DNA from: Petrotoga mexicana DSM 14811
Lineage (GTDB): Bacteria > Thermotogota > Thermotogae > Petrotogales > Petrotogaceae
Reading direction: 5' to 3'
DNA: 64,000 nt
NCBI RefSeq assembly: GCF_002895565.1
Contig: NZ_AZRN01000021.1
Coordinates: 1-64,000, forward strand
The notes under the pieces are model-generated. The model saw only the letters and a list, made by a program, of their open reading frames with translations, made no database searches and was not told the origin of the DNA. The position numbers and the translations under genes were made by a program. Of the stretch, positions 1,618-60,003 are shown in pieces (position 1 is the stretch's first letter; the number at the start of each line of letters is the position of its first letter).

Positions 1618-1726
1618 TATAGGAACATTAGAGGCAAATAAAGCTTAAAAATAATATTTTAATTTTAAAATGTATTTTTGAATTTTCAAAAACAGTGCAA
1701 AATTAATTAATCAGGAGGTGAAAAGT

Positions 1727-2725: not shown

Positions 2726-2726
2726 T

Positions 2727-10569: not shown

Positions 10570-10640
10570 TGATATACGCTTTTTCAATCTAAAGTACCTT
10601 TTAGTATTTAAAAAATGAAAGAAATTTAGGAGGGATAAAA

Positions 10641-13679: not shown

Positions 13680-13712
13680 TTCTTTCCCTCCTTTCTTTCT
13701 TTTACCCAATTT

Positions 13713-41186: not shown

Positions 41187-42554
41187 ATGTCTTTTTTGGA
41201 TGAAAATTATTTACTACAAAACAACACTTCGAAGATCTTGTATAATTCAATTAAAGATCTCCCTATCTTAGATGCTCACAATCACGGGGATGTGAAGGAG
41301 ATCGTTGAGGACAAAGGTTGGGATGACATATGGCAAGTTGAAGGAGCGACCGATCATTATGTTTGGGAATTAATGAGAAAAAGAGGTGTCCCCGAAGAAA
41401 AAATAACTGGAAATGCTTCAAATAAGGAAAAGTGGATGGCTTTGGCTGAAGTTTTCCCTGTGTTCGTTGGCAATCCTACATACGAATGGATACACCTCGA
41501 TCTAAAAAGAAGGTTTAAAATAGAAGATACCATTTCAAAGTATACGGCTGAAAAGATATGGCAAGATACCTCTCTATTACTAAAAAGCGAAAGTATGAAA
41601 CCTCAACAATTATTAAAAGAAATGAACGTAGAAATAATGTGTACAACAAATGATCCAACAGAGGATCTCTCATACCATGAAAAAGCTAAAGATATTGGGG
41701 GAATAAAAATTCTTCCCACTTGGAGACCCGACAAAGCTATGAACATTGAAAAAGAAAATTGGAAGGATTTTGTAGAAAAGTTAGGAGAAATAACAAAAGA
41801 AAATGTTGAACGTTTTGATGGGTTTTTAAATGCTCTTTACAAAACACACAAAAAATTTGAAGAATTTGGCGGTGTTTCGAGTGATCATGGTATATTTGAA
41901 CCGATTTCATACCCAGTTGAAAAAGAAAGAGTAAAAGAAATATATGTAAAAGCACTTTCAAATAAAGAGTTAACGAAACAAGAAATTTCAGACTTCAAAT
42001 CCTTTATGTTTTACGAATTTGGGACGATGAATGCTGAAAGCAATTGGGTTATGCAATTACATATTGGTGCGGTGCGAGATTATAGAGACAAGTTATATAA
42101 TACTTTGGGGCCAGACACCGGAGGAGATATTTCAACTAGCAACGTTGACTTGGCAAATGGGTTAAAATACTTTTTAAACCAATTTGATGAAAAATTGAAA
42201 GTTGTTTTGTACTGTTTGGATCCATCGCTATTTCCAACCGTTGCCACAATAGCAAGGGCCTTTCCAAACGTTAGCCTTGGAGCACCTTGGTGGTTCAACG
42301 ACAGCCCCTTTGGAATGGAGATGTATTTAAAATATATATCCACCATTGACCTTCTTAGCGACTTAGCGGGTTGGGTAACAGATTCAAGAAAGCTAATCTC
42401 CTACGGTTCAAGGACAGAGATGTTCAGAAGAGAGTTGTCTAACGTGGTTGGTGAAATGGTAGAAAAAGGTCAAATACCTATCAGGGAAGCATTTGATTTG
42501 GTGAGAGATATTAGTTACTTTAGACCAAAAAGGTTGTTTTTTGAAAAAATTTAG
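41187..42554 (+). CDS. uxaC: uronate isomerase
   Basis: 455-aa amidohydrolase-fold enzyme converting D-galacturonate to tagaturonate and D-glucuronate to fructuronate. Motifs: DAHNHGDVKEI near the N-terminus and GAPWWFNDSPFGMEMYL near the C-terminus. GAGGAGG precedes the ATG. Second gene of the GH4-uxaC-ROK-uxaE series. Confidence 0.95.
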   Translation: MSFLDENYLLQNNTSKILYNSIKDLPILDAHNHGDVKEIVEDKGWDDIWQVEGATDHYVWELMRKRGVPEEKITGNASNKEKWMALAEVFPVFVGNPTYEWIHLDLKRRFKIEDTISKYTAEKIWQDTSLLLKSESMKPQQLLKEMNVEIMCTTNDPTEDLSYHEKAKDIGGIKILPTWRPDKAMNIEKENWKDFVEKLGEITKENVERFDGFLNALYKTHKKFEEFGGVSSDHGIFEPISYPVEKERVKEIYVKALSNKELTKQEISDFKSFMFYEFGTMNAESNWVMQLHIGAVRDYRDKLYNTLGPDTGGDISTSNVDLANGLKYFLNQFDEKLKVVLYCLDPSLFPTVATIARAFPNVSLGAPWWFNDSPFGMEMYLKYISTIDLLSDLAGWVTDSRKLISYGSRTEMFRRELSNVVGEMVEKGQIPIREAFDLVRDISYFRPKRLFFEKI

Positions 42555-43759: not shown

Positions 43760-44932
43760 ATGTTTACAATTTTACCGAAGAAAGGGATTTCTCTGGGTCT
43801 TGGAGATAGAATAGGGATTGCAACCACGGGCCATATAAAAGTTGCAAAAAAATACAACTTCTTTCCTGTTTTCGCACAACAAAGTATTAGGGAGTTAAAT
43901 TTTACAGGAAGAACGTTTACTGATGTAAGAAAAGACGTACTAAACGCGCTTATTGAAGAAAATTATGTTGGAAACAGTGGATTTGATGGAGATCATTTGA
44001 AAAGTGACGAGGAGATTCAATATGCTTTAGATTCGGGAATTACAATGTTGACTTTGGATTGCTCAGAGCATATGAATAAAGATTCTTCTATAAAAGACCA
44101 AATATTTGAACAATTTTATAACAAAAGCTTTTTTGTAAACGATATGCCCATAGAATATTCAGATAAAAACGAATTGAATGAAATTGTTTCAATTTATGCC
44201 AGCGTTATCGAAAGAGTTATAGATGTATGGAACAAATTTCCAAAGGTAAATAAAAAAGAAGTATCTTTTGAAGTTTCAGTTGACGAGACAGATGTTCCAA
44301 CAGATGAAAAAACACACTTTTTGATCTCTAAATATATCAACGATGAAGGAGTAAAAATAGATACACTAGCCCCGCGCTTCCCTGGGGAGTTTCAAAAAGG
44401 TATTGACTATATAGGAAATGTACAAGAGTTTAAAAAGTCTCTTATCAAACAAGAGAAAATAGCCAAATACTTTGGATATAGGCTTTCCATTCATTCTGGT
44501 AGCGATAAATTCTCCATTTATCCTATAATAGGTGAAGTTACTCAAGGAAATTACCACCTAAAAACATCTGGAACCAGCTTCCTTGAAGCTATTAAGGTTG
44601 TAGCTCAGAAAGATCCAGAATTCTTCAAAAAAATCTGGCAAACATGTCTTGATAAAAGAGAAGAGATGGATAAATATTACCATCTTTCCTGTAACCCATT
44701 CTCTGTTCCAAAAGATTTATCCCCAACAGAGTACCTCAAAAATCCAGATGCAAGGCAAACACTGCATGTTTCATATATGTTCGTTTTGAACCCACAATAC
44801 GATTTCAGAGAAAAGTTCTTTGAGATCCTTACAAAATACCAAAATGAATACCATGAAAACGTTGCAAACCATATAGAAAAACATGTAAAAGAACTTAAAA
44901 TTGAAGAAACAATTCATAAACAGAAAAAATAA
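43760..44932 (+). CDS. uxaE: tagaturonate epimerase UxaE
   Basis: 390-aa protein recognisable as the UxaE family first described in Thermotoga, which interconverts tagaturonate and fructuronate. Visible are an N-terminal LGLGDRIGIATTGH and the central FGYRLSIHSGSDKFSIYP segment with conserved His/Asp. It links UxaC's galacturonate product to the fructuronate/mannonate route, avoiding a separate altronate branch. Ribosome site GAGGAGG. Recognition is by motif memory rather than alignment. Confidence 0.78.
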   Translation: MFTILPKKGISLGLGDRIGIATTGHIKVAKKYNFFPVFAQQSIRELNFTGRTFTDVRKDVLNALIEENYVGNSGFDGDHLKSDEEIQYALDSGITMLTLDCSEHMNKDSSIKDQIFEQFYNKSFFVNDMPIEYSDKNELNEIVSIYASVIERVIDVWNKFPKVNKKEVSFEVSVDETDVPTDEKTHFLISKYINDEGVKIDTLAPRFPGEFQKGIDYIGNVQEFKKSLIKQEKIAKYFGYRLSIHSGSDKFSIYPIIGEVTQGNYHLKTSGTSFLEAIKVVAQKDPEFFKKIWQTCLDKREEMDKYYHLSCNPFSVPKDLSPTEYLKNPDARQTLHVSYMFVLNPQYDFREKFFEILTKYQNEYHENVANHIEKHVKELKIEETIHKQKK

Positions 44933-45205: not shown

Positions 45206-45235
45206 ATGAAAAGTTTTTTGGTGATTTTATTATGA
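45206..45235 (+). pseudogene. short frame holding the lost signal-peptide start of the GH28 gene
   Basis: ATG at 45206 after AGAGGAAA encodes MKSFLVILL and stops at TGA 45233-45235, overlapping the ATG of the polygalacturonase frame (45232). Joined in one frame the two read MKSFLVILL-MICVSSSS-KVINA-VDTQ, a normal signal peptide. A one-base change near 45230 would explain the split. Confidence 0.6.
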
Positions 45236-46572
45236 TTTGCGTTTCATCTTCATCTAAAGTCATAAATGCAGTAGATACACAGGATGATTGGAATAGGGCT
45301 TCAGAAATTATTCAATCAGTACAAAGACCAAAAATTTCTGAAAAAAAATTTGTTATCACAGATTTTCGTGCAGCAAATGATGGTGTTGCTGATGCTCGCT
45401 CTGCTATTATAAAAGCAATTGATGCAGCAAGTGATAATGGAGGTGGACGTGTAGTTATACCAGCAGGGGAGTGGTATTGTAAAGGTCCCATTCATTTAAA
45501 AAGTAATATTGAGTTGCATGTAGCTGAAGGTGCACATCTTTTATTTAGTCCATATGCAAAAGATTATTTACCTGTTGTACTTACTAAATATGAAGGAACT
45601 AGATTATATAACTATTCTCCATTAATTTATGCAAGAAATGTTCATGATGTAGCAATTACAGGTAAAGGTGTAATAGACGGAAATAAGGATAGTGAATTTT
45701 TATGTTTTTTAGATAAACATAATTCAGACGTTGCGTTTTTGCGTCAAATGGGATCTGAAGGGGTACCTGTAGAAGAACGTATTTTCGGTGAAGGTCATTT
45801 TCTTAGACCATGTATGATTCAATTTTATGATGCAGAACGTGTTTTGCTAAAAGATTATACAGTAGTGAATTCTCCCTTTTGGGTTAATCACTTAAATTAC
45901 ACTAATCATGCATTTGTCAGTGGGATTAATGTAGATACCCATAACGCAAATAACGATGGAATTGATATTGAATCAAGCTCATATGTTATTGTGGAAAAAT
46001 CAAAGTTCCAAACAGGAGATGATTCAGTAGTTGTTAAGTCAGGGCGTGATTATGATGGCCGACAGGTTGGAATACCTAGTAAAAATATTGTAGTTTATCA
46101 AAATGATATGGGCGGCGAAGATGGGGTTGCACTTGGTAGTGAAATGTCTGGTGGTATTCGTAATGTATTCTTTACTGATAATATTTTAAGAAATGGAACT
46201 TCAGCATTCAGGTTCAAGTCTAATCTTGATCGTGGAGGTGTGGTTGAAAACATTCGAGTCCGCAATATGGAAATTGATACATTTGAACGTCTTTTCTGGT
46301 TTCAAATGAACTATCCAGGTGAATTAGGCGGATACTATCCAAGTATTTATAAGAATATTGTATTTGAGAATATTACTGTAAAAAATGTAGAAACGGTATT
46401 TGAGTCACATGCACCAAAGGGGTTCCCTCTGCAGGATGTTGTACTGAAAAATATCATAATCAAGAATGTAGAAAGTGATAATCCAATTATTTTAGAGAAC
46501 GCTAAGAATATTTGTTTTGAAAATGTAAAGCTCAATGATCAGTATATAAACGCTACTATTGATTGGTATTAA
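45232..46572 (+). CDS. GH28 polygalacturonase, frame-broken at the signal peptide
   Basis: 446-aa right-handed beta-helix glycosidase attacking polygalacturonate. GH28 landmarks: NNDGIDIES, GDDSVVVKSG, the GSE variant of GHG and the FRFKSN variant of RIK, as in exo-acting bacterial members. The frame starts at ATG 45232 without its own ribosome site; an upstream mini-frame supplies the missing signal-peptide start (see 45206). Arginine is mostly CGT/CGA/CGC, while neighbours use AGA almost exclusively, which points to recent transfer. Without repair or frameshifting the enzyme would stay in the cytoplasm. Confidence 0.85.
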   Translation: MICVSSSSKVINAVDTQDDWNRASEIIQSVQRPKISEKKFVITDFRAANDGVADARSAIIKAIDAASDNGGGRVVIPAGEWYCKGPIHLKSNIELHVAEGAHLLFSPYAKDYLPVVLTKYEGTRLYNYSPLIYARNVHDVAITGKGVIDGNKDSEFLCFLDKHNSDVAFLRQMGSEGVPVEERIFGEGHFLRPCMIQFYDAERVLLKDYTVVNSPFWVNHLNYTNHAFVSGINVDTHNANNDGIDIESSSYVIVEKSKFQTGDDSVVVKSGRDYDGRQVGIPSKNIVVYQNDMGGEDGVALGSEMSGGIRNVFFTDNILRNGTSAFRFKSNLDRGGVVENIRVRNMEIDTFERLFWFQMNYPGELGGYYPSIYKNIVFENITVKNVETVFESHAPKGFPLQDVVLKNIIIKNVESDNPIILENAKNICFENVKLNDQYINATIDWY

Positions 46573-46854: not shown

Positions 46855-48087
46855 ATGAATAAAGTTTATTTTGCAGTAGTAGGAATTAGAAACTTTGCAG
46901 CAGAACATATCAAGTTTATAAAACAATTAGAAAATGAGGGAGAAATCAAATTAGCAGGAATAGTGGTAGAAGATCGAAGGAAAAATTTTGACCTTGAGAA
47001 AAAATTTAAAAAAGAAGGAGTAGAGATTTTCTACTCGTATGATGACCTTCTAAAAAACGCTCGAGATTTTGTAGATGTAATCACACTACCGACTGCCATT
47101 CATACTCATAGCGAAATGGCAATAAAAGCTATGAAATACGGATATAATGTTTTATTAGAGAAACCTCCAGCTGCTACCGTTCAAGAAGTAGATAAAATTA
47201 TAGAAGCAGAGAAAGAAACGGGAAAGTTTTGTTCGATAGGTTTTCATATGATTCATTCGAGATCTATCAGAAAGTTGAAAGAAATTATTTTGCAAGGAAA
47301 ATTAGGGCAAATTAAAGAAATCAGTTGTAAAGCTATATGGCCAAGATATCGTTCATATTATACCAGAAATGAATGGGCCGGTAAAAGTATATACAACGGA
47401 CATATTATATTAGATGGACCTATAAATAACGCTTTAGCCCATTACTTAAACAATATGCTTTACTTAATAGGTCCTAGTATGAACGAATCAATCGATCTTG
47501 AAACTGTGAGGGCAGAATTATATAGAGCTCACACTTACATTGAAACAGAAGATACTTCATGTATAGAAGCTAAAGCAATTAATGGTACAAAGATACATTT
47601 CTATGTAACTCATGCTTCAAATAAAAAATTAGATCCCTATATGGTAATCGAAGGAACAAAAGGGAAAGCCTATTGGGATTTTTCTGAAAAAACAACAATA
47701 CTTTTAAATAATGGGGAAAAAATAGAGTTTGATAATGAAGGAATAGACCCTCATTTAGAAGTCTTTAGAATTGTAGCTAAAAAGCATTTGGGTGTTATAG
47801 ATGAATTATATTCCACACCAAAAAATTCACGACCATTTGTAGTAGCTGTAAATGGTGCCTACGACTCGGCTGAAAAAATTGTTCCTATACCAAAAAATTT
47901 CATAAAAGAATATGAAGAAGAAAATGAATATAAAACTGTTTTAAATAATATTGATGAAATAATAGATGAAGCCTTTGAAAAGAAAGTCCTTTTTTCAGAT
48001 ATAGGAATCACATGGGCTCGTGCAACAAAAGAAATAAAAGTCAAAGAATATAAGTCTTTCAACCCATTTTTGAAAAAAGATGCTTAG
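46855..48087 (+). CDS. Gfo/Idh/MocA-family oxidoreductase (1)
   Basis: 410-aa NAD(P)-dependent dehydrogenase with N-terminal Rossmann fold (VVGIRNFAAEH), the LLEKPPAAT motif (EKP with catalytic Lys) and a C-terminal alpha/beta domain with ILDGPINNALAHYL. It oxidises or reduces a sugar, uronate or inositol-like substrate; the pectin context suggests a uronic-acid derivative. GTAAGGAG precedes the ATG. The second such gene follows after 12 nt. Confidence 0.87.
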   Translation: MNKVYFAVVGIRNFAAEHIKFIKQLENEGEIKLAGIVVEDRRKNFDLEKKFKKEGVEIFYSYDDLLKNARDFVDVITLPTAIHTHSEMAIKAMKYGYNVLLEKPPAATVQEVDKIIEAEKETGKFCSIGFHMIHSRSIRKLKEIILQGKLGQIKEISCKAIWPRYRSYYTRNEWAGKSIYNGHIILDGPINNALAHYLNNMLYLIGPSMNESIDLETVRAELYRAHTYIETEDTSCIEAKAINGTKIHFYVTHASNKKLDPYMVIEGTKGKAYWDFSEKTTILLNNGEKIEFDNEGIDPHLEVFRIVAKKHLGVIDELYSTPKNSRPFVVAVNGAYDSAEKIVPIPKNFIKEYEEENEYKTVLNNIDEIIDEAFEKKVLFSDIGITWARATKEIKVKEYKSFNPFLKKDA

Positions 48088-48099
48088 GGGGTCTTTAAT

Positions 48100-49095
48100 A
48101 TGAAGTTATGCTTTGTAGGTTCAAGTGGCCATTATCATTATGTTGTAACACCCTTAAGACTTTATCATAATCTGAACATAAATGTTGTTGGAATTGCTCC
48201 TGGTTCCAATGGAGAAAACATAGACAAATTACGTAAAGAAATAGAAGACTTAGGATATAAACCAAAAATATATGAAGATTACAAGAAAATGTTCGATGAA
48301 ACTAACCCAGATATAGCCATCATTAACTGCTTTTTTGGCGATTTAGCTAAAGTTTCAATTGAAGCTTTAAACAGAAAGATTCATGTTTTTACAGAAAAAC
48401 CTGTAGCCACAAACTTTGAAGATCTTGATTTATTAAAGGAAGCTTACTTAAAAAGTCAATGTTCTTTCACAGCTATGTTCGGTATAAGGTACAAACCATG
48501 GTTTTTAACAGCTTATAATTATTTAAAAAAAGGTGTTGTAGGAGAAATAAGACTTCTCAATGCTCAAAAATCTTATAAACTTGGTCAAAGAGAGCCATTT
48601 TATAAACAAAGAAAAACTTATGGAGGCACTATTCCATGGGTTGGAAGTCACGGGATTGATTGGATCCGGTGGGTTACAGGAGTAAATTTTATTTCTGTAT
48701 ATGCAGCTCATTCGAAAAAATATAATAATAACTATGGGGATTTAGAGACAAGTGCATTATGCCAGTTTGAACTTGAAAATGAAATTTTTGCTTCATTATC
48801 AATAGATTACTACAGACCTAACAATGCTCCTACACATGATGACGATAGATTAAGAGTTGTTGGCACAAAAGGAATAATAGAAATAATGCATAATAAAGTA
48901 TATTTAATCGATAATGAAGTGCCTGGGATTCGTGAACTACCGTTAGAAGAAGAAAAAAGCATATTTCTAGATTTTTTAAGCGAAATAGAGAAAAAAGGAA
49001 AGTGTATGGTCACCGCTGAAGATTCTTTTGAAGTGACAAGGATATGTTTAAAAGCCCTTCAATCTGCCGACGAAGAAAAAATTATATTTTTATGA
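48100..49095 (+). CDS. Gfo/Idh/MocA-family oxidoreductase (2)
   Basis: 331-aa member of the same superfamily: N-terminal FVGSSGHYHYVVTPL, FTEKPVATN and WVGSHGIDWIRW (catalytic-domain His). The glycine motif is GSSGHYH rather than GxGxxG, so cofactor binding may be unusual. GGGGGT precedes the ATG. Encoded immediately after the first copy, probably a functional pair in uronate conversion. Exact role unknown. Confidence 0.85.
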   Translation: MKLCFVGSSGHYHYVVTPLRLYHNLNINVVGIAPGSNGENIDKLRKEIEDLGYKPKIYEDYKKMFDETNPDIAIINCFFGDLAKVSIEALNRKIHVFTEKPVATNFEDLDLLKEAYLKSQCSFTAMFGIRYKPWFLTAYNYLKKGVVGEIRLLNAQKSYKLGQREPFYKQRKTYGGTIPWVGSHGIDWIRWVTGVNFISVYAAHSKKYNNNYGDLETSALCQFELENEIFASLSIDYYRPNNAPTHDDDRLRVVGTKGIIEIMHNKVYLIDNEVPGIRELPLEEEKSIFLDFLSEIEKKGKCMVTAEDSFEVTRICLKALQSADEEKIIFL

Positions 49096-49323: not shown

Positions 49324-49346
49324 TTAGAAATAAAGGGAGGTTGAGA

Positions 49347-50663
49347 ATGATGAAAAAAGTATTATTACTAGTTTTACTGTGTTTGTCAGTAATTTCTTTT
49401 GCAGGTGAAGTTATTATTGAAGGCAACACACAACTCATGCAACTAGGCAGAGAAGTGCTTGCTGAAAATGATGGTTGGGGAGCCTTTGGCAACGGAACAA
49501 CTGGAGGTTCTAGTGCGATAAAAGATAACATTTATCTTGTAAAGACAAAAGAAGAATTAATACAAGCTCTAGGAGGAAATAATAAAGAAAATCGATACAA
49601 CGATATCCCTAAGATAATCTTTATCGAAGGTACAATCCAAGTCAGCGAACCTTACGAAAAATATAAGGATCCCAAATTTGATTTTGACAAATATCTAGAA
49701 GAATATTCACCTGAAAATTGGGGGAAGAAGGAAGTTACTGGACCATTAGAAGAAGCCAGAGCAAGATCTCAAAAAAATCAAGCAGAAGATATTATAATTT
49801 ACGTTGGTTCAAATACTACTATAATAGGTGTCGGGGACAATGCTAAAATAGTTGGAGCAGCTTTACAAGTTAAAGGAGTTAATAATGTAATTATTAGAAA
49901 TATTACGTTTGAAAGCCCTATCGATTATTTTCCCGCATGGGACCCCACCGATGGTGAATTTGGAGAATGGAACTCAGAATATGATTGCTTAACAATAGAA
50001 AATTCTAAAAATGTGTGGGTGGATCATTGTACATTCAGTGATGGTGAATATTTAGACATTGAATTACCTGTATATTTTGGAAGACTATTTCAACAACATG
50101 ATGGATTGTTAGACATAAAAAATGAAGCTGATTTAATAACAATTTCTTATAATATTTTCTATAACCACGATAAAACTATGCTTATTGGTTCTAGCGATAG
50201 CCGTACACAAGATAGAGGACATTTGAGAGTCACTCTTCATCATAATCTATTTGAAAACGTTACACAACGATTACCAAGGGTACGATTCGGCCAAGTTCAT
50301 GTATACAACAATTACTACAAAATCAATCCTCATTCCCCGTACCATTTTGACTATGCTTGGGGAGTTGGAGTTGAATCCCAAATACATGCTCAAAATAATT
50401 ACTTCGATATACCATGGAGTGTAAACGTGTCAAACATAATAAAAAGATGGAAAGGAAACAATATATATGAGGAGGGTAATGTGGTTTTGTATCCTTCCAG
50501 TGAACCATTTTATACAAATATCTTGAAAGCTCATAATGATGTTAATGTCGATGATACATTAGTCTGTTCAGTTAATTGGGAACCCGTATTAGTTAGGAGA
50601 ATTGATCCAACAATGTCTGTTCCTGCAATCGTTATGAACGAAGCAGGAGCAGGAAAATTATAA
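49347..50663 (+). CDS. secreted PL1 pectate lyase
   Basis: 438-aa beta-helix lyase that cleaves polygalacturonate by beta-elimination, giving 4,5-unsaturated ends. Signal peptide MMKKVLLLVLLCLSVISF, cleavage near AGE. PL1 motifs: VWVDHCTFSDG, DGLLDIKNEAD (calcium site) and LHHNLFENVTQRLPRVRFGQVHVYNN with the catalytic Arg. Starts considered: TTG 49341, ATG 49347, ATG 49350; 49347 or 49350 are best spaced from AAGGGAGG. Confidence 0.93.
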   Translation: MMKKVLLLVLLCLSVISFAGEVIIEGNTQLMQLGREVLAENDGWGAFGNGTTGGSSAIKDNIYLVKTKEELIQALGGNNKENRYNDIPKIIFIEGTIQVSEPYEKYKDPKFDFDKYLEEYSPENWGKKEVTGPLEEARARSQKNQAEDIIIYVGSNTTIIGVGDNAKIVGAALQVKGVNNVIIRNITFESPIDYFPAWDPTDGEFGEWNSEYDCLTIENSKNVWVDHCTFSDGEYLDIELPVYFGRLFQQHDGLLDIKNEADLITISYNIFYNHDKTMLIGSSDSRTQDRGHLRVTLHHNLFENVTQRLPRVRFGQVHVYNNYYKINPHSPYHFDYAWGVGVESQIHAQNNYFDIPWSVNVSNIIKRWKGNNIYEEGNVVLYPSSEPFYTNILKAHNDVNVDDTLVCSVNWEPVLVRRIDPTMSVPAIVMNEAGAGKL

Positions 50664-50917
50664 AAGCTTTTTTCTAAACCTACATAGTTGAGGTAAACGA
50701 TTTAAGAAAGGACGATAAAACGCAACAGGTTTAAAAAACGAAAAAACGAATAAATTTGATGATCTAAGCTTTTTGGAAATTGGCCGTGCAAGTTTAAACC
50801 ATCTATAGCAAAGGCGAAAAGAATTCATTTTTACGAATTATTGGGATCTTGTTTGAAAAAAATAATAAAAAATATCTTAAATAAAGTTCAGAACGTGAGA
50901 GGCGGCTTGAATGTGTG

Positions 50918-50933: not shown

Positions 50934-51010
50934 GATGACATAACATTTTACTGAGAGGAGGTGAGTATTTAATATCGGAGCTAAGCTATTGAAAAATTGT
51001 TCAAATACGT

Positions 51011-51029
51011 TTTTTAGAATTTCTAAAAA
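51011..51029. promoter_or_regulatory. candidate hexuronate operator TTTTTAGAATTTCTAAAAA
   Basis: Perfect palindrome with 9-nt arms around one base; the best member of the family. It lies 32-50 nt before ATG 51061. Confidence 0.7.
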
Positions 51030-51060
51030 CACTATGTATATAAATAAAAGGAGGTCAAGG

Positions 51061-52320
51061 ATGATGAAAAAAGGATTAATGTTAATAGTAATGTTGTTTC
51101 TGTTGTTCGCTGAGTATGTTTCTGCTGTAGAACTCACGATGTACGTAACTGATGAAAGCAAAGGAAGAGTCTTCAGAGAGGTTGTTAAGGTGTACCAACA
51201 AGAACATCCAGATGTAGAAATAGAAGTTGTGGCTTTTCCATATGCCAATTACATGCAAAAGATGTCTCTCGTTTTCTTGGGTGGAAATCCACCAGACCTT
51301 TTAGAAACTACTGCAACTTATTTACCCCAAATGGCACCATATTTAAGAGACTTAGGACCAGATATTGAGAAAAATTTAGGGTTATCTCCTCAAGAATACA
51401 AAGACTCCACGTATGATGTCGTAAAAGTTTACCTTGGAGAAGGTGAAGTTGTTCATGCAGTACCTACGGCTTTTACCACATATTCACTGTGGGTAAATAA
51501 GAGTATGTTTGAAAAAGCTGGTATTGAATATCCACCATATGGAAGAGAAGAACCCTGGACTTGGGAAGAATTCAAAGAAATTTTAAAAAAAGTAAAAGAA
51601 GTAAACCAAATTCCTTATGCAATGTCTATAGAATATTCTGCTGACAAATTCTTTAGTTACCTTGCTTTGTGGAACATCAAGATAGTTGATGAAGAGGGAA
51701 ACTTTGTTATGGATCAATACGAACATGCAGAAAAAGCTATAGATGAGTATGTTAATTTATTCAAAGAAGGATTAGTTCCCCCGGCAGAATGGCTTTCAGG
51801 ACAATCTCATACTAATGATTTCTTTGGAGGAATAACAGCAGCTGATTGGGCAGGTAGTTGGATGGCAAGGGAGTCCTTTAATGCTGGAAAACAAAATGAA
51901 GTATCCCCAGCGTATCTTCCACTTATCGGAGATTGGTTTGGAGTTTCTGGTGGCGGATTCTTGGCAACTCCAAAAACAGGTGATGTCGAAAAGGAAAAGG
52001 CGGCAACTGAATTTGTAATGTGGATGGCAAATAAAGATGAAGGGTACACAGAATACCTTAAAAGAAGTAGAGATTTAAGTGCTTATAAAGGTCATATAAT
52101 TGATTATGGTGAACCACTTTTACAAGAATGGGCAGAAGTACATCTAGTTCTTGCGGAAAGAGCACCTGCATGGACCACAGAAGTTAGGGCGAATGCTGTA
52201 TGGAGCAGATTAACCGATACAATTAGAAAAGATATTTCTTTAGGCATCACTGGTCAAATGACTGCGGAAGAAATGATTGAACATTGGAAAACTGAAGCTG
52301 AAAGAGTAAAAGTACAGTGA
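51061..52320 (+). CDS. ABC sugar-binding lipoprotein/periplasmic protein (family 1)
   Basis: 419-aa extracellular solute-binding protein with signal peptide (MMKKGLMLIVMLFLLFAEYV, cleavage near SAVE). No lipobox Cys is seen. Typical motifs are LTMYVTDESKGRVFREVVKVYQ (trimmed lobe 1), a Trp-rich hinge WTWEEFKE and WAGSWMA. AGGAGGT precedes the ATG; the longer frame from 50989 is rejected because it lies over the operator. Position between pectate lyase and permeases implies binding of (unsaturated) oligogalacturonates. Confidence 0.9.
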   Translation: MMKKGLMLIVMLFLLFAEYVSAVELTMYVTDESKGRVFREVVKVYQQEHPDVEIEVVAFPYANYMQKMSLVFLGGNPPDLLETTATYLPQMAPYLRDLGPDIEKNLGLSPQEYKDSTYDVVKVYLGEGEVVHAVPTAFTTYSLWVNKSMFEKAGIEYPPYGREEPWTWEEFKEILKKVKEVNQIPYAMSIEYSADKFFSYLALWNIKIVDEEGNFVMDQYEHAEKAIDEYVNLFKEGLVPPAEWLSGQSHTNDFFGGITAADWAGSWMARESFNAGKQNEVSPAYLPLIGDWFGVSGGGFLATPKTGDVEKEKAATEFVMWMANKDEGYTEYLKRSRDLSAYKGHIIDYGEPLLQEWAEVHLVLAERAPAWTTEVRANAVWSRLTDTIRKDISLGITGQMTAEEMIEHWKTEAERVKVQ

Positions 52321-52357
52321 ATATTAACTTTATTTTAATCTTCCGGCTATTTAGTAG

Positions 52358-52386
52358 GGCCTGTTTTTTAACAGGCCTGCTTTTTT
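52358..52386 (+). terminator. internal terminator between binding protein and permeases
   Basis: GGCCTGTT TTTT AACAGGCC, then TGCTTTTTT. Probably a partial terminator that lets the binding protein be made in excess over the permeases. Confidence 0.88.
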
Positions 52387-52437
52387 AAAACATTAATATG
52401 TATTTAACTTTGATGAGTTTGTCAGTGAGGTGATTTT

Positions 52438-53316
52438 GTGAAAAAAATAGATATAGTAAAAAATAGGTTTGTCTTTATTATTCCCTCTTTTGTTTTTCAT
52501 TTTTTATTTTACTTATTACCAATCATTTTAATGATAATTTTAGCCTTTTTCTCGTGGGATCTTTTAAACTCTCCATCCTTTGTAGGATTAGAAAATTTCA
52601 AAGACTTAATGGAAGACAAGTGGTTTTGGAATTCAATTGTTGTGACTTTGAAGTATACTTTTTTTACTCTTCCTATAGTTTTTATAACTTCACTAATTTT
52701 AGGACTTTTACTTCAAGAAGAAAATAGTTTTTCGAAAATTATGAGAGTTTTCTTTTACTGGCCTTATATGATCCCTATGGTAGCAGGAGGGACTATGTGG
52801 AAATGGCTCCTCAGTAAAGATTTCGGTTTAGTTAATCATATTTTAAAACAACTAGGATTCAATCCAATTAATTGGTTAGATAATCCAACTTTAGCTTTGT
52901 TTAGTGTAGTAATCGTACAAACTTGGGTACTTAGCGGATTCATGATGATGTTATACATAGTGGGCTTACAAGCACTCCCGGAAGAATTTTATGAAGCCGC
53001 ATCAATTGACGGAGCTTCAAACTTCCAAAAATTTTGGTTTATTACCATGCCTCTATTAAGAAACACTCATATTTCAGTTATAACTCTAACGATTGCTAAT
53101 TGTTTTAGGAATTTTACTATTGTTTATATTATGACGACGGGTGGTCCAGGCTATGCAACTACTGTTGCTCCTTTATATATATACCAAAAAGCTTTTACAG
53201 ACTTTAGAATAGGTTATGCTTCTGCTGGATCAATAGTTATTCTTTTAATTAGCTTGGTTATTGCCTATGTTGTTAGAAAAGTTCAAGAAAGAGATTTAGA
53301 GGGGGGTAAAATATGA
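52438..53316 (+). CDS. ABC sugar permease (MalF/UgpA type)
   Basis: 292-aa inner-membrane protein with six predicted TM helices and the EAA loop EEFYEAASIDGASNFQKFWFITMPLL that contacts the ATPase. GTG start after GAGGTGAT. Ends overlapping the next permease by 4 nt. No ATPase gene is present in the window, so a shared MsmX-type ATPase encoded elsewhere is expected. Confidence 0.93.
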   Translation: MKKIDIVKNRFVFIIPSFVFHFLFYLLPIILMIILAFFSWDLLNSPSFVGLENFKDLMEDKWFWNSIVVTLKYTFFTLPIVFITSLILGLLLQEENSFSKIMRVFFYWPYMIPMVAGGTMWKWLLSKDFGLVNHILKQLGFNPINWLDNPTLALFSVVIVQTWVLSGFMMMLYIVGLQALPEEFYEAASIDGASNFQKFWFITMPLLRNTHISVITLTIANCFRNFTIVYIMTTGGPGYATTVAPLYIYQKAFTDFRIGYASAGSIVILLISLVIAYVVRKVQERDLEGGKI

Positions 53317-54110
53317 GAAAAGCAATAGTAATCATTCTAGCAATTTTATTCATGATACCAGTATTTTGGACTGTTTCATCTTCTTTAAAAAGTATGAACG
53401 AAATATACAGGTATCCTCCAACTATTTTTCCTCAAGAAATTTCCCTTGAAGGGTATAAAAATGTGATCAATGAAAGCCAGTTCCCAAGATATGTAGCTAA
53501 TACTCTATTTGTAGCTATTGTATCTACAGTTATTACTGTTTTTATTTCTGTTTCTTTAGGATATGGTTTAGCTAAAGGAACGTTTAAATATAAAAATTTC
53601 TTTCGGGAAATAGTTACAATAACCCTTTTTATCACTGCCCAAGTGATAATGGTCCCTTTATTTGTGGTTATACAACAACTTGGATTGATCGACTCTTTAT
53701 GGGGTTTAATTATTCCTGCAGTTTTTACCCCAACGGCATCTTTTACTGCTTATCAATACATGAGAGATCTACCTAATGAATTTCTTGAAAGTGCTCAAGT
53801 TGATGGTGCAAATGAATGGCAGATATTTTTTAAAATTGTTCTACCCATGTCAAGACCATTAATGGCAGCAATTTCGATCTTTTCTTTTACATGGAGATGG
53901 AATGATTTCGTTCTTCCTTTGATAGTAATTAATTCTGGTGATAAATTTACTGTACAATTAGCTTTATCAGCTTTACAAGGTCAATATGGAATTCCCTGGA
54001 ATGAAATTTTAGCATTTTCGGTTCTTGCTATAATTCCAACATTAATAATCTTCTTATTGTTCCAAAATTTATTTATGAAAGGTTTATCAGCTGGTGGTTT
54101 GAAGTACTAA
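53313..54110 (+). CDS. ABC sugar permease (MalG/UgpE type)
   Basis: 265-aa permease partner with six TM helices and EAA loop NEFLESAQVDGANEWQIFFKIVLP (key residues E, A, D, G). Coupled by ATGA overlap to the upstream permease; ribosome site GGGGGG in its 3' end. Probably imports oligogalacturonides together with the protein at 51061. Confidence 0.93.
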   Translation: MRKAIVIILAILFMIPVFWTVSSSLKSMNEIYRYPPTIFPQEISLEGYKNVINESQFPRYVANTLFVAIVSTVITVFISVSLGYGLAKGTFKYKNFFREIVTITLFITAQVIMVPLFVVIQQLGLIDSLWGLIIPAVFTPTASFTAYQYMRDLPNEFLESAQVDGANEWQIFFKIVLPMSRPLMAAISIFSFTWRWNDFVLPLIVINSGDKFTVQLALSALQGQYGIPWNEILAFSVLAIIPTLIIFLLFQNLFMKGLSAGGLKY

Positions 54111-54133: not shown

Positions 54134-55450
54134 GTGAAATTGATAAATACATACTCTAATATAGACGAATTAAAAGAAGTCATAAGGGAAAGGAATTTAG
54201 ATATCCCTTTTTCTGATAACCTAGAAATACTTAAGGAAAATTTAGAATTAAATGGAAAAGTGATACCTAATAAATTAGCAATACATCCTTTGGAGGGATG
54301 TGACTCTGAATTAAATGGAGCTCCGAGTAAGTTAACAGAAAGAAGATATCTTAGATATGCAAGAGGTAAAGCTGGTTTAATATGGCTTGAAGCAACAGCA
54401 GTGAGTAAAGAAGCAAGAGCAAACGACAAACAATTGTTTCTAAATCATGAAACAGTCAATGAATTTGTTGGTTTAGTAAAAAAAATAAAAGAAGAATCTT
54501 TGAAAAGTGGAAATCAGGTCCCTTACTTAGTCCTACAACTGGCTCATTCCGGACGTTTCGGGGAAAATAAAATTATTGCAATTCACGACGAAAAATTAGA
54601 TGAACTCTCCAATGTAAATTATAATACCCCTGTCATAACTGATGATGAACTAAAGGAGCTGGAAAATTTTTATGTAGAAGCCTCAAAACTAGCTAAGAAA
54701 GCGGGATTTGATGCCATAGATATAAAAAGCTGTCACAAATACTTACTATCTGAAATTCTTGGAGCCCGTACCCGAAAAGGTATATTCGGGGGTAAATATG
54801 AAAATAGAACCCGATTCATTAAAGAAGTAGTAGATTCAATAAATAAAGAAGTAGGAATAGATATAGCTGTAAGATTAAATATTTCTGATTTTTTGCATTA
54901 CCCCATAAGTTGGGGAACAAATAAAAAAGGTGAAGTAGATCTATCTGAACCCCTGAAATTAATTGAAGAATTAAGAGAAAAAGGGGTAAAACTAATAAAC
55001 GTAACCGCTGGAAGCCCATATATAAATCCACATATTAATAGACCAGCGGATGGTGAAGAAAAAAAATATACGCCACCTGAACATCCATTAATTGGAGTAG
55101 AAAGATTGATAAAATTCTCAAAAAATGTGCAAGAAAAATTTAGAGATATTATTGTGGTTGGTACAGGATTAAGCTGGTTTAGACATTTTGTACCTTTTGT
55201 CGCCGCAGGAATGGTTGAAAAAGGGTACTGTAAAATAGTTGGATTAGGAAGAATGGCTTTTGCTTACCCAGATTTCGCAAAAGATATAATTGAAAATAAA
55301 AAGATGGAAGAAAATAAATCCTGTATAACGTGCAATAGATGCGCTGAATTAAAAGCTCATCAAGAAATAACTGGTTGTGTAATAAGAGATAAAGATGTTT
55401 ATTTAAAGCCATACATGAAAATCCTGAGAAAAAGTAAATCAAAGAGGTGA
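54134..55450 (+). CDS. Old Yellow Enzyme-family NADH:flavin oxidoreductase
   Basis: 438-aa FMN TIM-barrel protein: LEGCDSELNGAPSK (variant PMEGCD-type start), LQLAHSGRFG with the FMN/substrate His, DAIDIKSCHKYLLSEILG, and VGLGRMAFAYPDF. A C-terminal cysteine set CITCNRC...GC could hold a [4Fe-4S] cluster as in 2,4-dienoyl-CoA reductase-type members, but the extra FAD domain of those is missing and may be supplied by the next gene. GTG start 54134 after GAGGGGG. Likely reduces an activated C=C bond, possibly of an unsaturated uronate. Confidence 0.87.
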   Translation: MKLINTYSNIDELKEVIRERNLDIPFSDNLEILKENLELNGKVIPNKLAIHPLEGCDSELNGAPSKLTERRYLRYARGKAGLIWLEATAVSKEARANDKQLFLNHETVNEFVGLVKKIKEESLKSGNQVPYLVLQLAHSGRFGENKIIAIHDEKLDELSNVNYNTPVITDDELKELENFYVEASKLAKKAGFDAIDIKSCHKYLLSEILGARTRKGIFGGKYENRTRFIKEVVDSINKEVGIDIAVRLNISDFLHYPISWGTNKKGEVDLSEPLKLIEELREKGVKLINVTAGSPYINPHINRPADGEEKKYTPPEHPLIGVERLIKFSKNVQEKFRDIIVVGTGLSWFRHFVPFVAAGMVEKGYCKIVGLGRMAFAYPDFAKDIIENKKMEENKSCITCNRCAELKAHQEITGCVIRDKDVYLKPYMKILRKSKSKR

Positions 55451-55454
55451 TTTA

Positions 55455-57260
55455 GTGAAAAAAATAAAAGCAGATGTTATAGTGGTTGGAGCTGGAGGAG
55501 CTGGATTAAGAGCCGCTTTGAGTGTAAAAGAAACAAATAAAGATTTGAATGTAAAAGTTATAACAAAAGGTGAAAGGTTAAAAGATAGTATCACAGCCAC
55601 TTCTTACTCTGATCGCATGGCTTTCCATGCTACCTTGGATACTACTGAGCCTGGAACTGAAGATTCATGGAAATATCATGCTGATGATATTTTTAAAATT
55701 GGTGGAATGGTATCCGACAAAATTTTAGCTGAAGTTTTAGCAAAAAACTCAAAAGATGCCTTTGAGTACCTGGATAAACTCGGCGTTCCTTTTGTGAAGG
55801 AGAATGGAAAGGTTAAACAATTTAGAACCGATGGATCTCAATACGCCAGAGCATGTTTTACTGGACCTGATACCGCTGTTCAAATAGCTCAGATTCTTTC
55901 AAAAGAAGCTGATAAACAAAAAATCGAAGTTATAGAAAATGTTATGTTTCAAGATATTTTGTTAGATGAAGAAAATAAAGTTAAAGGCGCTTGGGGAATC
56001 AATACGATTACTAACGAATATTTTTTCTTTGAAACCCCTTCTATAATATTAGCTTGTGGAGGTCCAGGACAAGTTTATTCTGAAAGTTTATACCCTAAAG
56101 AAGCAACGGGGGATTGTCATGCTGCCGCTCTACGATGTGGGGCAGAACTTGTAAATATGGAATTTATTCAAATAGGTTTGTCATCAAAAAAAACTAAAAT
56201 TGCTTGTTCAGGCAGTTTCATGAGATCTTTACCTAAGATAACTAACAATTTGGGAGAAGATGTAATACTTAAATATTATAAAAATAAATACGATCCAAAA
56301 AAATTAATATCTATTCTTTTCTCCAAAGGATGGAGTTGGCCATTATCATACGACGAAGAATCTCATATAATCGATGTAGCCGTAGCAAAGGAAATTTTGG
56401 ACGGTCGAAAGATTTTCTTGGATTATACTTTCAATCCAGAATTTTTCTCAAAAGGTTCAATTCCTGAAGAAATTATAAATTGGTACAAACAAGAAATTAA
56501 CGTGAATTTATTTGATCAAAAATTTTATTCTAATCCTTTAAAGAGATTAAAAAGTATAAATAAAGAAGTATGTGAATTACTAAAAACAAAGGGGCTCGAC
56601 ATCGATACCGAAAAGAAAATAGAAATATTTCCTGCAATCCAACATTTCCAAGGAGGCATAAAGATAAATGAAAGAGCTGAGACCAATATAAAGGGGCTTT
56701 ATGCTTGCGGAGAAGCTGCTGGTGGTCAACATGGTGCAAATAGGCCCGGTGGAAATTCATTACTTGACACACAGGTTTTTGGAAAGATAGCAGGACAAAA
56801 TGCAGCCCTTTATTCTTCTCAAGTTAATATTTCAGAATTAAGCGATGAAGAAATGAAAAATCTCCAAATAGAAAATGCAAAATTCTCTGATGAAACTGGT
56901 AAGAAAAACATTATAAGAGAAGAAATTAGGACACTTATGAGTGAAAATGCTTCTGTTATCAGATCAGAGAAAAAATTATTAGAAACTTTTGATGTTATAT
57001 CTAATATCTCTAACAAAGAAATACTCAACTCAAGTAAAAACCTAAAAGATTATTTGGAAACATGCAATATTCGTTTGCTTTCTCGAGTTTTGTTGAAATC
57101 TATGTGTGAAAGGAAAGAGAGTAGAGGCCCACATTTGCTTTTTAAAAATCCAGAAACTTTAGAACTTTATCCAAGAGATGATGAAAATTGGGCATACCGC
57201 TATATCGTCGTAAAATTGGAAAATGACAATATTAGTTGTTCTATTAGAAAGTGTCGTTAG
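55455..57260 (+). CDS. FAD flavoprotein of the succinate dehydrogenase/fumarate reductase family
   Basis: 601-aa protein with dinucleotide motif VVVGAGGAGLRAAL, a capping domain, HFQGGIKIN (His of the covalent/substrate region) and the second FAD motif GLYACGEAAGGQHGANRPGGNS. C-terminal helical region as in FrdA/NadB/AprA. It starts 4 nt after the OYE-like gene, so the two are co-translated. Specific substrate unknown; FAD-dependent C-C bond redox chemistry on an organic acid or sugar acid is the likely job. No FrdB-type iron-sulfur subunit is adjacent. Confidence 0.87.
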   Translation: MKKIKADVIVVGAGGAGLRAALSVKETNKDLNVKVITKGERLKDSITATSYSDRMAFHATLDTTEPGTEDSWKYHADDIFKIGGMVSDKILAEVLAKNSKDAFEYLDKLGVPFVKENGKVKQFRTDGSQYARACFTGPDTAVQIAQILSKEADKQKIEVIENVMFQDILLDEENKVKGAWGINTITNEYFFFETPSIILACGGPGQVYSESLYPKEATGDCHAAALRCGAELVNMEFIQIGLSSKKTKIACSGSFMRSLPKITNNLGEDVILKYYKNKYDPKKLISILFSKGWSWPLSYDEESHIIDVAVAKEILDGRKIFLDYTFNPEFFSKGSIPEEIINWYKQEINVNLFDQKFYSNPLKRLKSINKEVCELLKTKGLDIDTEKKIEIFPAIQHFQGGIKINERAETNIKGLYACGEAAGGQHGANRPGGNSLLDTQVFGKIAGQNAALYSSQVNISELSDEEMKNLQIENAKFSDETGKKNIIREEIRTLMSENASVIRSEKKLLETFDVISNISNKEILNSSKNLKDYLETCNIRLLSRVLLKSMCERKESRGPHLLFKNPETLELYPRDDENWAYRYIVVKLENDNISCSIRKCR

Positions 57261-57389
57261 ATAAAACGAACTATTAACAAATAATTAAATAATCTAAAAT
57301 GATTAGGAAGAATTTCTAATAGGTATAAAAGTACTCCAAGAGGTAAAGTATAATGTTGAAGGCATTAAAAGTTAGTTAACAATACAGGT

Positions 57390-57404
57390 TTTAGAGTTTC
57401 TAAA
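57390..57404. promoter_or_regulatory. candidate hexuronate operator TTTAGA-GTT-TCTAAA
   Basis: Perfect 6-nt arms, 33-47 nt before the eda start. A partial second copy (GAAGAATTTCTAA) lies at 57307-57319. Confidence 0.65.
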
Positions 57405-57436
57405 GTCACTAAAATACCACGAATGAGGAGGATTCC

Positions 57437-58075
57437 ATGGATAAATTAAAAGTGATGGAACGAATTATAAATGTTGGAATAATTGCTGTAGTAAGAGCTG
57501 ATTCTCCTGAAGAAGCCTTGAAAATTGCCGACGCTGTTAGAAAAGGTGGTATCGAGGCCATTGAGATCACGATGACTGTTCCTGGAGCGAATGATGTTAT
57601 CAAAGAACTGAAAAAGGTATATTCAAAAGGAGAAATTCTTATAGGTGCAGGAACTGTTCTTGATCCTGAAACAACGAGAATTGCTATGTTAGCTGGAGCA
57701 GAATTTTTTGTAAGTCCATATCTAAACAAAGAGATGGTAAAAATGTGCAATAGATATCAAAAAGTTTCTATGGCTGGAGCTATGTCAATAAAAGAAGTTG
57801 TAGAAACTATGGAAGTAGGTGCCGATTTTGTTAAATTGTTTCCAGGTAGTGCTTTTGGCCCTTCAATAGTTAAGGCGATTAAAGGACCTCTTCCTCAAGC
57901 ACCGATAGTTCCTACAGGCGGTGTGAGTCTCGAAAATGTAGGAGATTGGATAAAGGCTGGCTGTGTTGCAGTTGGCGTTGGAGGAGAATTAACAAAAGGT
58001 GCAAAGTCGGGAGACTATGCGCTTGTCCAAGAAACAGCAAAAAAATTTGTTGAAGCCATAGCAATGGCAAGATAA
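57437..58075 (+). CDS. eda: KDPG aldolase
   Basis: 212-aa class I aldolase splitting 2-keto-3-deoxy-6-phosphogluconate into pyruvate and glyceraldehyde-3-phosphate. Visible: IIAVVRADSPEEA, EITMTVPGA, GAGTVLD, Schiff-base Lys in FVKLFPGSAFGP and PTGGVSLEN. GAGGAGG precedes the ATG. Last step of hexuronate breakdown, next to kdgK. Confidence 0.96.
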   Translation: MDKLKVMERIINVGIIAVVRADSPEEALKIADAVRKGGIEAIEITMTVPGANDVIKELKKVYSKGEILIGAGTVLDPETTRIAMLAGAEFFVSPYLNKEMVKMCNRYQKVSMAGAMSIKEVVETMEVGADFVKLFPGSAFGPSIVKAIKGPLPQAPIVPTGGVSLENVGDWIKAGCVAVGVGGELTKGAKSGDYALVQETAKKFVEAIAMAR

Positions 58076-58115
58076 TTTTCAAGAATACAATAAATATTTG
58101 AAAGGAGATATTGTA

Positions 58116-59141
58116 ATGGCTAGCAAAATTGTTACTTTTGGTGAAATTATGATGAGACTTTCTCCCCCAAATTATTTCAGATTTGTTCAAACAGATTCTT
58201 TTGAAGTAACTTACGGTGGCGGTGAGGCCAACGTTGCCGCTTCTCTTGCCAATTATGGAGAAAATGCTTATTTTGTGACAAAAGTTCCAGGCAACCCGAT
58301 AGGGCAATCGGCAATAAATCATCTTCGGCGATATGGGGTAAAAACTGATTATATAGTTCGAGGTGGAGAAAGATTAGGTATTTATTTTCACGAATTTGGA
58401 GCATCTCAAAGACCTTCTTTAGTCATTTATGATAGAAAATATTCATCTTTTGCAGAATCTCAACCTACAGAATACAAATGGGAAAAGTTTTTAGATGAGG
58501 CAAAGTGGTTTCATTTTACAGGGATAACACCTGCATTGAGCGAGAATGCGGCACAGGCATGCCTTGATGCGGTGGAAACAGCAAAAAATAAAGGAATTAT
58601 TGTTAGTTGTGATTTGAATTATAGGAAAAAACTGTGGTCACCACAAAAAGCAAACGAAGTGATGTCAGAACTTATGAAATATGTCGATATAGTCATAGCG
58701 AACGAGGAAGATGCAGAAAAGGTATTCAATATAAAAGCTAAAGATTCTGATGTGGCCAAAGGCAATCTAAAATTAGACGATTATAAAGATGTGGCCAAGC
58801 AAATTTTTGATAGGTTTGATTTGAAAGGAGTCGCTATAACGTTAAGAGAAAGCTTTTCTGCTTTTGATAATGGTTGGTCAGGCCTATATTATGATGGCAG
58901 CAAATTTTATTGCTCCAAAAAATATCAAATTCACATAGTTGATAGAGTAGGGGGAGGAGATTCCTTTGCTGGAGGGTTGATATATGCATTAATAAACAAT
59001 TACGCTCCTCAAGAGGCAATAGAATTTGCTACAGCTGCCTCATGTTTGAAGCATTCTATAATCGGAGATTTTAACCACGTTACAGTAGAAGAAGTGAAAA
59101 CTCTAACAAAAGGAGATTCCACAGGCAGGGTTCAAAGATAG
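58116..59141 (+). CDS. kdgK: 2-keto-3-deoxygluconate kinase
   Basis: 341-aa PfkB-family kinase: N-terminal FGEIMMRLSPP, YGGGEANVAASLANYG, and C-terminal DRVGGGDSFAGGLIYAL with the catalytic Asp. Phosphorylates KDG to KDPG for Eda. ATG 58116 after AAAGGAG; the GTG-type start at 58098 upstream is rejected. Operon with eda (40-nt gap). Confidence 0.95.
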   Translation: MASKIVTFGEIMMRLSPPNYFRFVQTDSFEVTYGGGEANVAASLANYGENAYFVTKVPGNPIGQSAINHLRRYGVKTDYIVRGGERLGIYFHEFGASQRPSLVIYDRKYSSFAESQPTEYKWEKFLDEAKWFHFTGITPALSENAAQACLDAVETAKNKGIIVSCDLNYRKKLWSPQKANEVMSELMKYVDIVIANEEDAEKVFNIKAKDSDVAKGNLKLDDYKDVAKQIFDRFDLKGVAITLRESFSAFDNGWSGLYYDGSKFYCSKKYQIHIVDRVGGGDSFAGGLIYALINNYAPQEAIEFATAASCLKHSIIGDFNHVTVEEVKTLTKGDSTGRVQR

Positions 59142-59219: not shown

Positions 59220-59256
59220 CAAATTTGGTATTTTATAGATAGGAAGGTGAAAATCT

Positions 59257-60003
59257 ATTCAAACTATCAGAAAAGTTCTGGAGGTATTAGATTATATAGT
59301 CTATTCACCAAAACCAGTTAATGTAACAGAAATTGCAAGAGAGTTTGATATGTCTATATCTAATGCTTATAAGTACTTAGACGACTTGCACAAAGGAGGC
59401 TTGTTGTCAAAGAATAGCGATAAATCGTATTTCCCGAGCTTTAAACTTGTGGAGTATGGAAGTATTATCTTAAAAAAAATAAATCTTAGAGAGATTGCAC
59501 ATCCACACCTAGTTGATTTAATGGTGAAAACAGGTCAAACAGTGCATCTGGCTATTAAAGAAGGCTATGAAGGAATATATATAGAAAAGATAGAAGGCCC
59601 TAATTCTTTACCAATGATGTCAAGGATCGGAATGAAGATGAACCTTTATGCAACAGGATTTGGAAAAGCTATTTTGGCGCATTTACCTGAAAAGGAAATA
59701 GAAGAATATCTGGAAAATGCGGAGTTGAAAAAAAGGGGTAAAAACACGATTACTGATCCTAATGAATTGAAAAATGAACTTAAGAAAATAAGAGAAAGAG
59801 GGTACGCAGTAGATAACGAAGAAAACGAAACCGGGATCTTTTGTATAGGGGCACCTATTTTTAATTACGATAAAAAAGTTATAGCGGGTGTAAGTATTTC
59901 GATGAGTACCTCTCGAGCCGAAGAGGAAAAAGTAGATGAATACATCCGCTATGTCAAAGAATGCGCCGAAAATATTTCAAAGTTGTTGGGGTATAAAGGT
60001 TAA
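59257..60003 (+). CDS. kdgR: IclR-family regulator (KdgR-like), probable ATT start codon
   Basis: 248-aa repressor: N-terminal winged helix (TIRKVLEVLDYIVYSPKPVN, recognition helix SISNAYKYLDDL) and C-terminal IclR effector domain (GQTVHLAIKEGYEGIYIEKI). The first ATG (59350) would remove the first helix and half the HTH. The frame is open back to a TGA at 59248-59250, and ATT 59257 is ideally placed behind AGGAAGGTG (59241-59249), so ATT is chosen. Next to kdgK/eda it is the probable KDG-responsive regulator of the pectin island. Confidence 0.88.
   Translation: MQTIRKVLEVLDYIVYSPKPVNVTEIAREFDMSISNAYKYLDDLHKGGLLSKNSDKSYFPSFKLVEYGSIILKKINLREIAHPHLVDLMVKTGQTVHLAIKEGYEGIYIEKIEGPNSLPMMSRIGMKMNLYATGFGKAILAHLPEKEIEEYLENAELKKRGKNTITDPNELKNELKKIRERGYAVDNEENETGIFCIGAPIFNYDKKVIAGVSISMSTSRAEEEKVDEYIRYVKECAENISKLLGYKG

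Follow-up and report, generated by a model that had tools for sequence, protein, structure and literature searches.

Every polysaccharide lyase yields unsaturated uronates, for which, to our knowledge, the only described routes are KduI/KduD and DhuI/DhuD, together with an alginate variant. Both take lyase products to 2-keto-3-deoxygluconate (KDG) for KdgK and Eda, as would the route proposed here, for which we propose the same net balance. Processing of unsaturated uronates by KduI-KduD and DhuI-DhuD has been described (PMC12838403). We analysed a stretch of 64,000 nt from Petrotoga mexicana DSM 14811 (NZ_AZRN01000021.1, positions 1-64,000 of the forward strand, assembly GCF_002895565.1; hereafter the window), which holds a pectin island. 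In contrast to the described routes, this island encodes two flavoproteins and Gfo/Idh/MocA dehydrogenases (replaced elsewhere by short-chain dehydrogenase/reductases (SDRs) or zinc-dependent alcohol dehydrogenases (Zn-ADHs)), with no KduI and no KduD above the model cut-off. The flavoproteins are an Old Yellow Enzyme-family FMN protein (OYE, the product of 54134-55450) and an FrdA/SdhA-fold FAD protein (FRD, the product of 55455-57260). That OYE and FRD form a conserved two-flavoprotein module of uronate catabolism, apparently not yet described, is well supported. A role on unsaturated galacturonate, in place of KduI and KduD, is plausible and is our leading reading. We propose tentatively, and with rather more doubt than confidence, that both are C-C redox enzymes which turn uronide ends, most likely the 4,5-unsaturated galacturonate made by a polysaccharide lyase family 1 (PL1) pectate lyase, into KDG without any need for GH105, KduI or KduD.

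The two genes, both on the forward strand and both with a GTG start, encode 438 and 601 amino acids. In the list of open reading frames (ORFs) they are 4 nt apart, and the gene order is substrate-binding protein (SBP), permease, permease, OYE, FRD, eda, KDG kinase and IclR regulator. A preliminary description of this DNA had placed the adjacent pair between permeases and eda, and the ORFs, Pfam and NCBIfam all agree with it. Among 103 Thermotogota genomes, the OYE clade occurs in nine and FRD follows directly in every one. The Thermotoga loci run SBP-permease-permease, a receptor-like gene, OYE, FRD, GfoA and GfoB; PL1, GH4, a 159-aa gene and a Zn-ADH occupy the opposite strand. The transporter beside the pair there is a homologue of the ATP-binding cassette (ABC) transporter in the window (46-65% identity). 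The Thermotoga module presumably corresponds to about TM0425-TM0428. The T. maritima locus pelA-agu4A-TM0435 as published matches part of this order, and growth on pectin induced aguEFG, pelA and aldH-pelB more than 17-fold, while the TM042x genes are unmentioned in the main text of that study (PMC3750489). We found nothing relevant in open-access papers on the module, on the Thermotoga locus tags or on an OYE acting on unsaturated uronates. The preliminary description had suggested an undescribed way of handling unsaturated uronates; the conserved tie of the pair to pectin and KDG genes, in a genome without KduI, GH88/GH105 or an above-cut-off KduD, supports an undescribed step, while the unsaturated substrate stays a proposal. 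Conservation of the pair elsewhere, the inclusion of the Gfo/Idh genes at 46855-49095 in the neighbourhood and a gap in the saturated branch are points that go beyond that description.

Run against 84,980 genomes, the OYE alignment gave at least 536 relatives among the matches listed. The best 80 of these fall in Bacillota, Halanaerobiales, Planctomycetota, Armatimonadota, Acidobacteriota, Omnitrophota, Chloroflexi, Aminicenantes, Bacteroidota and others. Across 81 loci with a readable operon, the partners of OYE were FRD (45), SDR (32), GfoA (10), KdgK (10), Zn-ADH (8) and an Eda-like aldolase (8). Planctomycete operons run OYE-SDR-Eda-BNR_4-FRD-KdgK, and those of Limnochordia eda-kdgK-IclR-Gfo-PF01261-GfoA-OYE-FRD. 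In Halanaerobium, either GfoA-OYE adjoins UxaB-UxaE-UxaC-UxaA or OYE-SDR-FRD-TctC-TctB-like-TctA lies ahead of UxaB-UxaE. TIM barrels of the PF01261 type, the usual partners of Gfo/Idh dehydrogenases, made up 9 of the 76 other neighbours tested. This broad spread, which includes marine Planctomycetes with BNR_4 proteins, is also what would be expected if the pair acted on some other plant cell-wall or algal sugar acid ending in KDG or a relative, with pectin as one instance, and the loci near GH43, GH51 and GH10 genes point the same way. We nevertheless regard that reading as unlikely, given the galacturonate-specific setting in Thermotogota and Halanaerobium.

The known uronate routes are incomplete in this genome (36 contigs, 2.13 Mb, completeness 99.6%), and our genome-wide statements are based on family searches. 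PF04962 (KduI/IolB) had no match, and no SDR passed the TIGR01832 cut-off for KduD: four SDRs in the genome scored 154-198 bits against 339. One of them is of UxuB type (384 bits, above its own cut-off), another, next to fatty-acid genes, is FabG-like, and the remaining two read as other SDRs. The absence of kduI first noted for the locus extends to the genome, and so does that of kduD as judged by the cut-off. The same searches of the genome found no GH88 or GH105 and no UxuA, UxaA or ManD-like dehydratase, so that neither a recognised opening of unsaturated ends nor a saturated-branch dehydratase was found despite the presence of Eda and KdgK; any of these genes may, however, have been missed in a gap between contigs. 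Two dehydratase candidates were rejected: the sole strong MR_MLE match, next to a dipeptidase-like gene, is best read as a dipeptide epimerase, and the one IlvD belongs to the ilv operon. A Zn-ADH homologue (C12) was also set aside, as a threonine-dehydrogenase-like gene beside a KBL-like gene.

The genome does encode the rest of the saturated branch (UxaE, a UxaC-like gene, the UxuB-type SDR, KdgK and Eda), and the module might stand in for the missing mannonate and altronate dehydratases by converting hexulosonate or mannonate to KDG. An OYE-positive congener (G049) likewise lacks UxuA, which would fit. We consider this rather improbable, however, because UxuA is present in six OYE-positive Thermotogota, because Halanaerobium loci have a full UxaC-UxaB-UxaA set plus OYE, and because dehydration chemistry is, as general knowledge goes, unreported for either fold. 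Moreover, the UxuB-type gene lies 2.5 kb from a contig end, and a dehydratase gene could therefore have been lost in the gap. Replacement of UxuA by the module was rejected on the six genomes that have both, the two being co-enriched (P = 0.0005, uncorrected for relatedness).

OYE belongs to the Old Yellow Enzyme family by its match to Oxidored_FMN (PF00724; 89.5 bits, cut-off 27), and its AlphaFold2 (AF2) model (pLDDT 94.9) is closest to 2-naphthoyl-CoA reductase (NCR; Z 42.9), 2,4-dienoyl-CoA reductase (DCR; 39.8) and trimethylamine dehydrogenase (TMADH; 39.6), with YqjM at Z 39.3. With DCR, NCR and TMADH it shares an FMN TIM barrel followed by a C-terminal four-cysteine motif (C397-x2-C400-x2-C403-x11-C415), from which a 4Fe-4S cluster is predicted; the cysteines are conserved in 81-83 of the 83 relatives on which conservation was judged. 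Their CxxCxxC spacing, which we take to be that of TMADH, differs from the CxxCxxxC of FadH. Unlike these enzymes, OYE is a short form whose chain ends at 438 aa and which has no FAD/NAD(P)H domain, as the preliminary description had it. It also departs from the classical ene-reductases: in the signature K198-x-x-H201-x-Y203, Lys198 occupies the position of the first His of YqjM, so that the first residue of the usual His-x-x-His/Asn is Lys in 83/83 relatives while the second His and the Tyr are retained in all of them. Twenty-eight relatives exceed 800 aa through a C-terminal extension, mostly in Planctomycetes (including L066:9980-12625). The single long form that we scanned consists of OYE, Fer4_20 and Pyr_redox_2, a GltD-like NAD(P)H/FAD/Fe-S module, and this marks OYE as an NAD(P)H-driven reductase. 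Fer4_20 is named for domain II of dihydropyrimidine dehydrogenase, and together with Pyr_redox_2 it would give the long form an NAD(P)H-to-cluster electron path akin to that of dihydropyrimidine dehydrogenase and GltD modules; unlike in dihydropyrimidine dehydrogenase, however, the FMN domain here is of OYE type rather than dihydroorotate dehydrogenase (DHODH) type, and OYE of the window has no such module.

These features bear on the literal form of the proposal in the preliminary description, in which unsaturated galacturonate or 4-deoxy-5-keto-uronate (DKI) would be reduced directly at C4=C5 by OYE, with FRD supplying the FAD/NAD function. The fold and cluster motif of OYE, the adjacency of the pair and the absence of KduI are all in its favour. 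KDG requires an oxygen at C5, however, and the 4-deoxy-uronate left by saturating C4=C5 of unsaturated galacturonate would have none; such a product is a dead end in operons that carry KdgK and Eda. Nor is FRD simply the stand-in for the missing domain: FRD still adjoins many long-form OYEs, the scanned one of which has a GltD-like module of its own, and an NAD(P)H site is not known in proteins of the FrdA fold. We regard the literal proposal as highly improbable, and the part that makes FRD the missing domain of OYE was rejected.

The second protein has the full-length fold of the FrdA, SdhA and NadB flavoproteins, with Pfam matches to FAD_binding_2 (PF00890, 161 bits) and Succ_DH_flav_C (PF02910) and an AF2 model (pLDDT 90.6) that matches E. 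coli FrdA with Z 50.7 across 539 residues. It is unlike them in its active site. In essentially all of the 53 family members compared, the His of HPT is replaced by Gly and its Thr by Ala or Ser, the Arg of PRD by Ser (in one case Thr; this position was placed by sequence alignment within a divergent stretch) and the His of AHYTMGG by Gln. The covalent-FAD His is lost as well, and the only catalytic residue kept is the Arg of GANRLG, so that by its residues FRD is neither a fumarate reductase nor a succinate dehydrogenase. The family has two subtypes, A (the window, Caldicoprobacter and L084; 42-70% identical) and B (about 27%; Thermotoga and Planctomycetes). Neither OYE nor FRD reached any listed NCBIfam cut-off.

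NADH:cinnamate reductases combine OYE-like and FrdA-like domains, and the pair might by this resemblance be an NAD(P)H-driven ene-reductase serving as an electron sink, whose acceptors could be hydroxycinnamates or other unsaturated acids that come free with pectin. A permease that follows OYE-FRD-Gfo-Gfo in Thermotoga (L015:4155-5045, L018:5848-6738), read from its sequence as an auxin-efflux-type (AEC) carrier, might export a product and would suit such a sink. We nevertheless consider the sink improbable: the recurring partners are KdgK, Eda and sugar dehydrogenases, the catalytic Arg, His and Thr of FrdA are all replaced in FRD, and the FMN_bind domain that is joined to the FrdA-like part in the cinnamate reductase type has no Pfam match in OYE or FRD.

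How, then, might the pair yield KDG from an unsaturated uronide? The gene association, the common operator described below, the families and folds, the unusual but conserved active sites and the absence of the known genes are direct observations, and from these we infer the chemistry. GfoA and GfoB (elsewhere an SDR or Zn-ADH) would use NAD+ to oxidise the allylic C3-OH to a 3-keto enone. The 3-ketone would then permit beta-elimination of the C1 glycosidic bond, freeing the remainder of the oligomer and leaving a C1=C2 enone, which OYE would reduce with NAD(P)H via its 4Fe-4S cluster, turning C1 into CH2-O and setting the C2 stereochemistry, a centre otherwise inverted by KduI/KduD. Hydration at C5, ring opening and reduction of the C3 ketone would complete the conversion to KDG. 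FRD would take a companion C-C redox step or relay electrons. The net reaction, unsaturated uronide + NAD(P)H + H2O to KDG + shorter oligomer, would equal the balance of GH105, KduI and KduD combined. Precedents for such chemistry are the Gfo/Idh enzyme YjhC, in which hydration of an unsaturated sialic acid passes through a keto intermediate, and the redox-elimination sequence of GH4 glycosidases (PMC7315737). The likeness of GfoA/GfoB to YjhC/NanOx and the 3-keto-glycoside pathways would lie in a Gfo/Idh dehydrogenase acting on an unsaturated sugar acid; those pathways, however, are without flavoprotein reductases, and the role of GfoA/GfoB is a prediction.

Several observations weigh against this scheme or narrow it. 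No dedicated eliminase was identified in the window, and no chemistry is assigned to FRD. In Halanaerobium and others OYE is also found with no FRD close by, so that the pair is not obligatory. The substrate may be broader, because some OYE loci lie near xylan, cellulose or arabinan enzymes rather than pectin genes. SDR and Zn-ADH are mutually exclusive in OYE operons with P = 0.014, a value that is uncorrected for relatedness. A DhuI/DhuD-type replacement (an RpiB-like protein plus an SDR) may do the work instead of the flavoproteins. Finally, PF04962 is matched in up to 14 of the 50 OYE-bearing genomes, in about seven of them within the score range of a confirmed KduI, so that a strict replacement of KduI/KduD by the pair, which the preliminary description places where they are not seen, is not supported. 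Complementarity of OYE and KduI within the phylum was likewise dropped: in Thermotogota the two do not overlap (0/9 versus 17/103 with PF04962), but the difference is not significant (P = 0.18). Counting KduI by PF04962 alone was also given up, as IolB is mixed in; by NCBIfam, two strong matches were IolB and one weaker match (110 bits) was a true KduI. In another Thermotogota family, a strong KduI/IolB-superfamily protein adjoins an above-cut-off KduD (L030:661-2292, L033:663-2292); it reached no NCBIfam model at E 1e-70 and is possibly an unrecognised KduI variant.

It is possible, if on balance doubtful, that the module represents a phylum-spanning and undescribed route, already present in Thermotoga, that puts a sugar 3-dehydrogenase, a beta-elimination and an Fe-S ene-reductase, of a class acting on carbohydrates, in the place of glycosidase, isomerase and reductase together. 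If so, growth of Thermotoga and similar thermophiles on pectin without KduI would be accounted for, and two large unannotated enzyme clades (at least 536 OYE relatives) in Thermotogota, Halanaerobiales, Clostridia and Planctomycetes would gain a function. Enzymes of the OYE and FrdA kinds would also find a place in sugar catabolism.

The other mapped genes of the pectin island are all on the forward strand. Upstream of the pair lie a UxaC-like uronate isomerase (41187-42554; read from sequence and operon homology rather than from a hidden Markov model), the tagaturonate epimerase UxaE (43760-44932; PF16257, 435 bits) and a GH28 enzyme nearest to exo-acting galacturonidases (45232-46572; Pfam, with 299 bits to the BT4155 model, under its cut-off). 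These are followed by the Pfam-assigned Gfo/Idh/MocA dehydrogenases GfoA (46855-48087), homologues of which adjoin OYE in Thermotoga, Halanaerobium, Limnochordia and others, and GfoB (48100-49095), which lies immediately 3' of GfoA both here and in Thermotoga. Next come the PL1 pectate lyase (49341-50663; PF00544, 182 bits), whose start resembles a signal peptide, and the ABC transporter (ORFs at 50989-54110). The latter comprises an SBP, with its start probably downstream of 51028, and two permeases (52438-53316 and 53313-54110), and a hairpin resembling a terminator lies between the SBP and the first permease. Downstream of the pair are the KDPG/KHG aldolase Eda (57437-58075; PRK06552, 290 bits, above cut-off), a KDG kinase-type PfkB protein (58098-59141; Pfam PfkB, with 571 bits to the kinase half of NF041633, under the cut-off for the fusion) and an IclR/KdgR-type regulator (59350-60003; Pfam IclR_C, with 164 bits to the KdgR model, under its cut-off). 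The regulator gene starts earlier than the listed ATG, because sequence coding for its helix-turn-helix lies upstream, in 59230-59349. A GH4 gene is also within the island.

An operator-like palindrome, GTTTTAGAGTTTCTAAAG, was found by pattern matching before eda (57388-57405, forward strand), with copies at 50917 and 51011 ahead of the SBP-permeases-OYE-FRD unit and a weak one at 46805, found with a shorter pattern, before GfoA. The window holds seven matches against 0.23 expected, a number reached in 0 of 100 shuffles. Its placement is the same in a congener; a different genus gave scattered weak matches, and its conservation is therefore at the level of the genus. The palindrome positions overall are 9546, 14716, 18955, 21296, 22355, 46805, 50917, 51011 and 57388, and further sites lie at several E1 pairs resembling pyruvate dehydrogenase (PDH) or acetoin dehydrogenase, at a lipoamide-dehydrogenase-like gene and at a major facilitator superfamily (MFS) gene. 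The common palindrome suggests that the pectin units and these other genes may form one regulon. Four E1 alpha/beta pairs of 2-oxoacid or acetoin dehydrogenase type lie within 17 kb (1718-3731, 9598-11609, 12708-14681 and 16970-18918). On the same contig, beyond the window, there is a second and distant OYE-family protein of 357 aa with 27% identity (L011:4248-5321).

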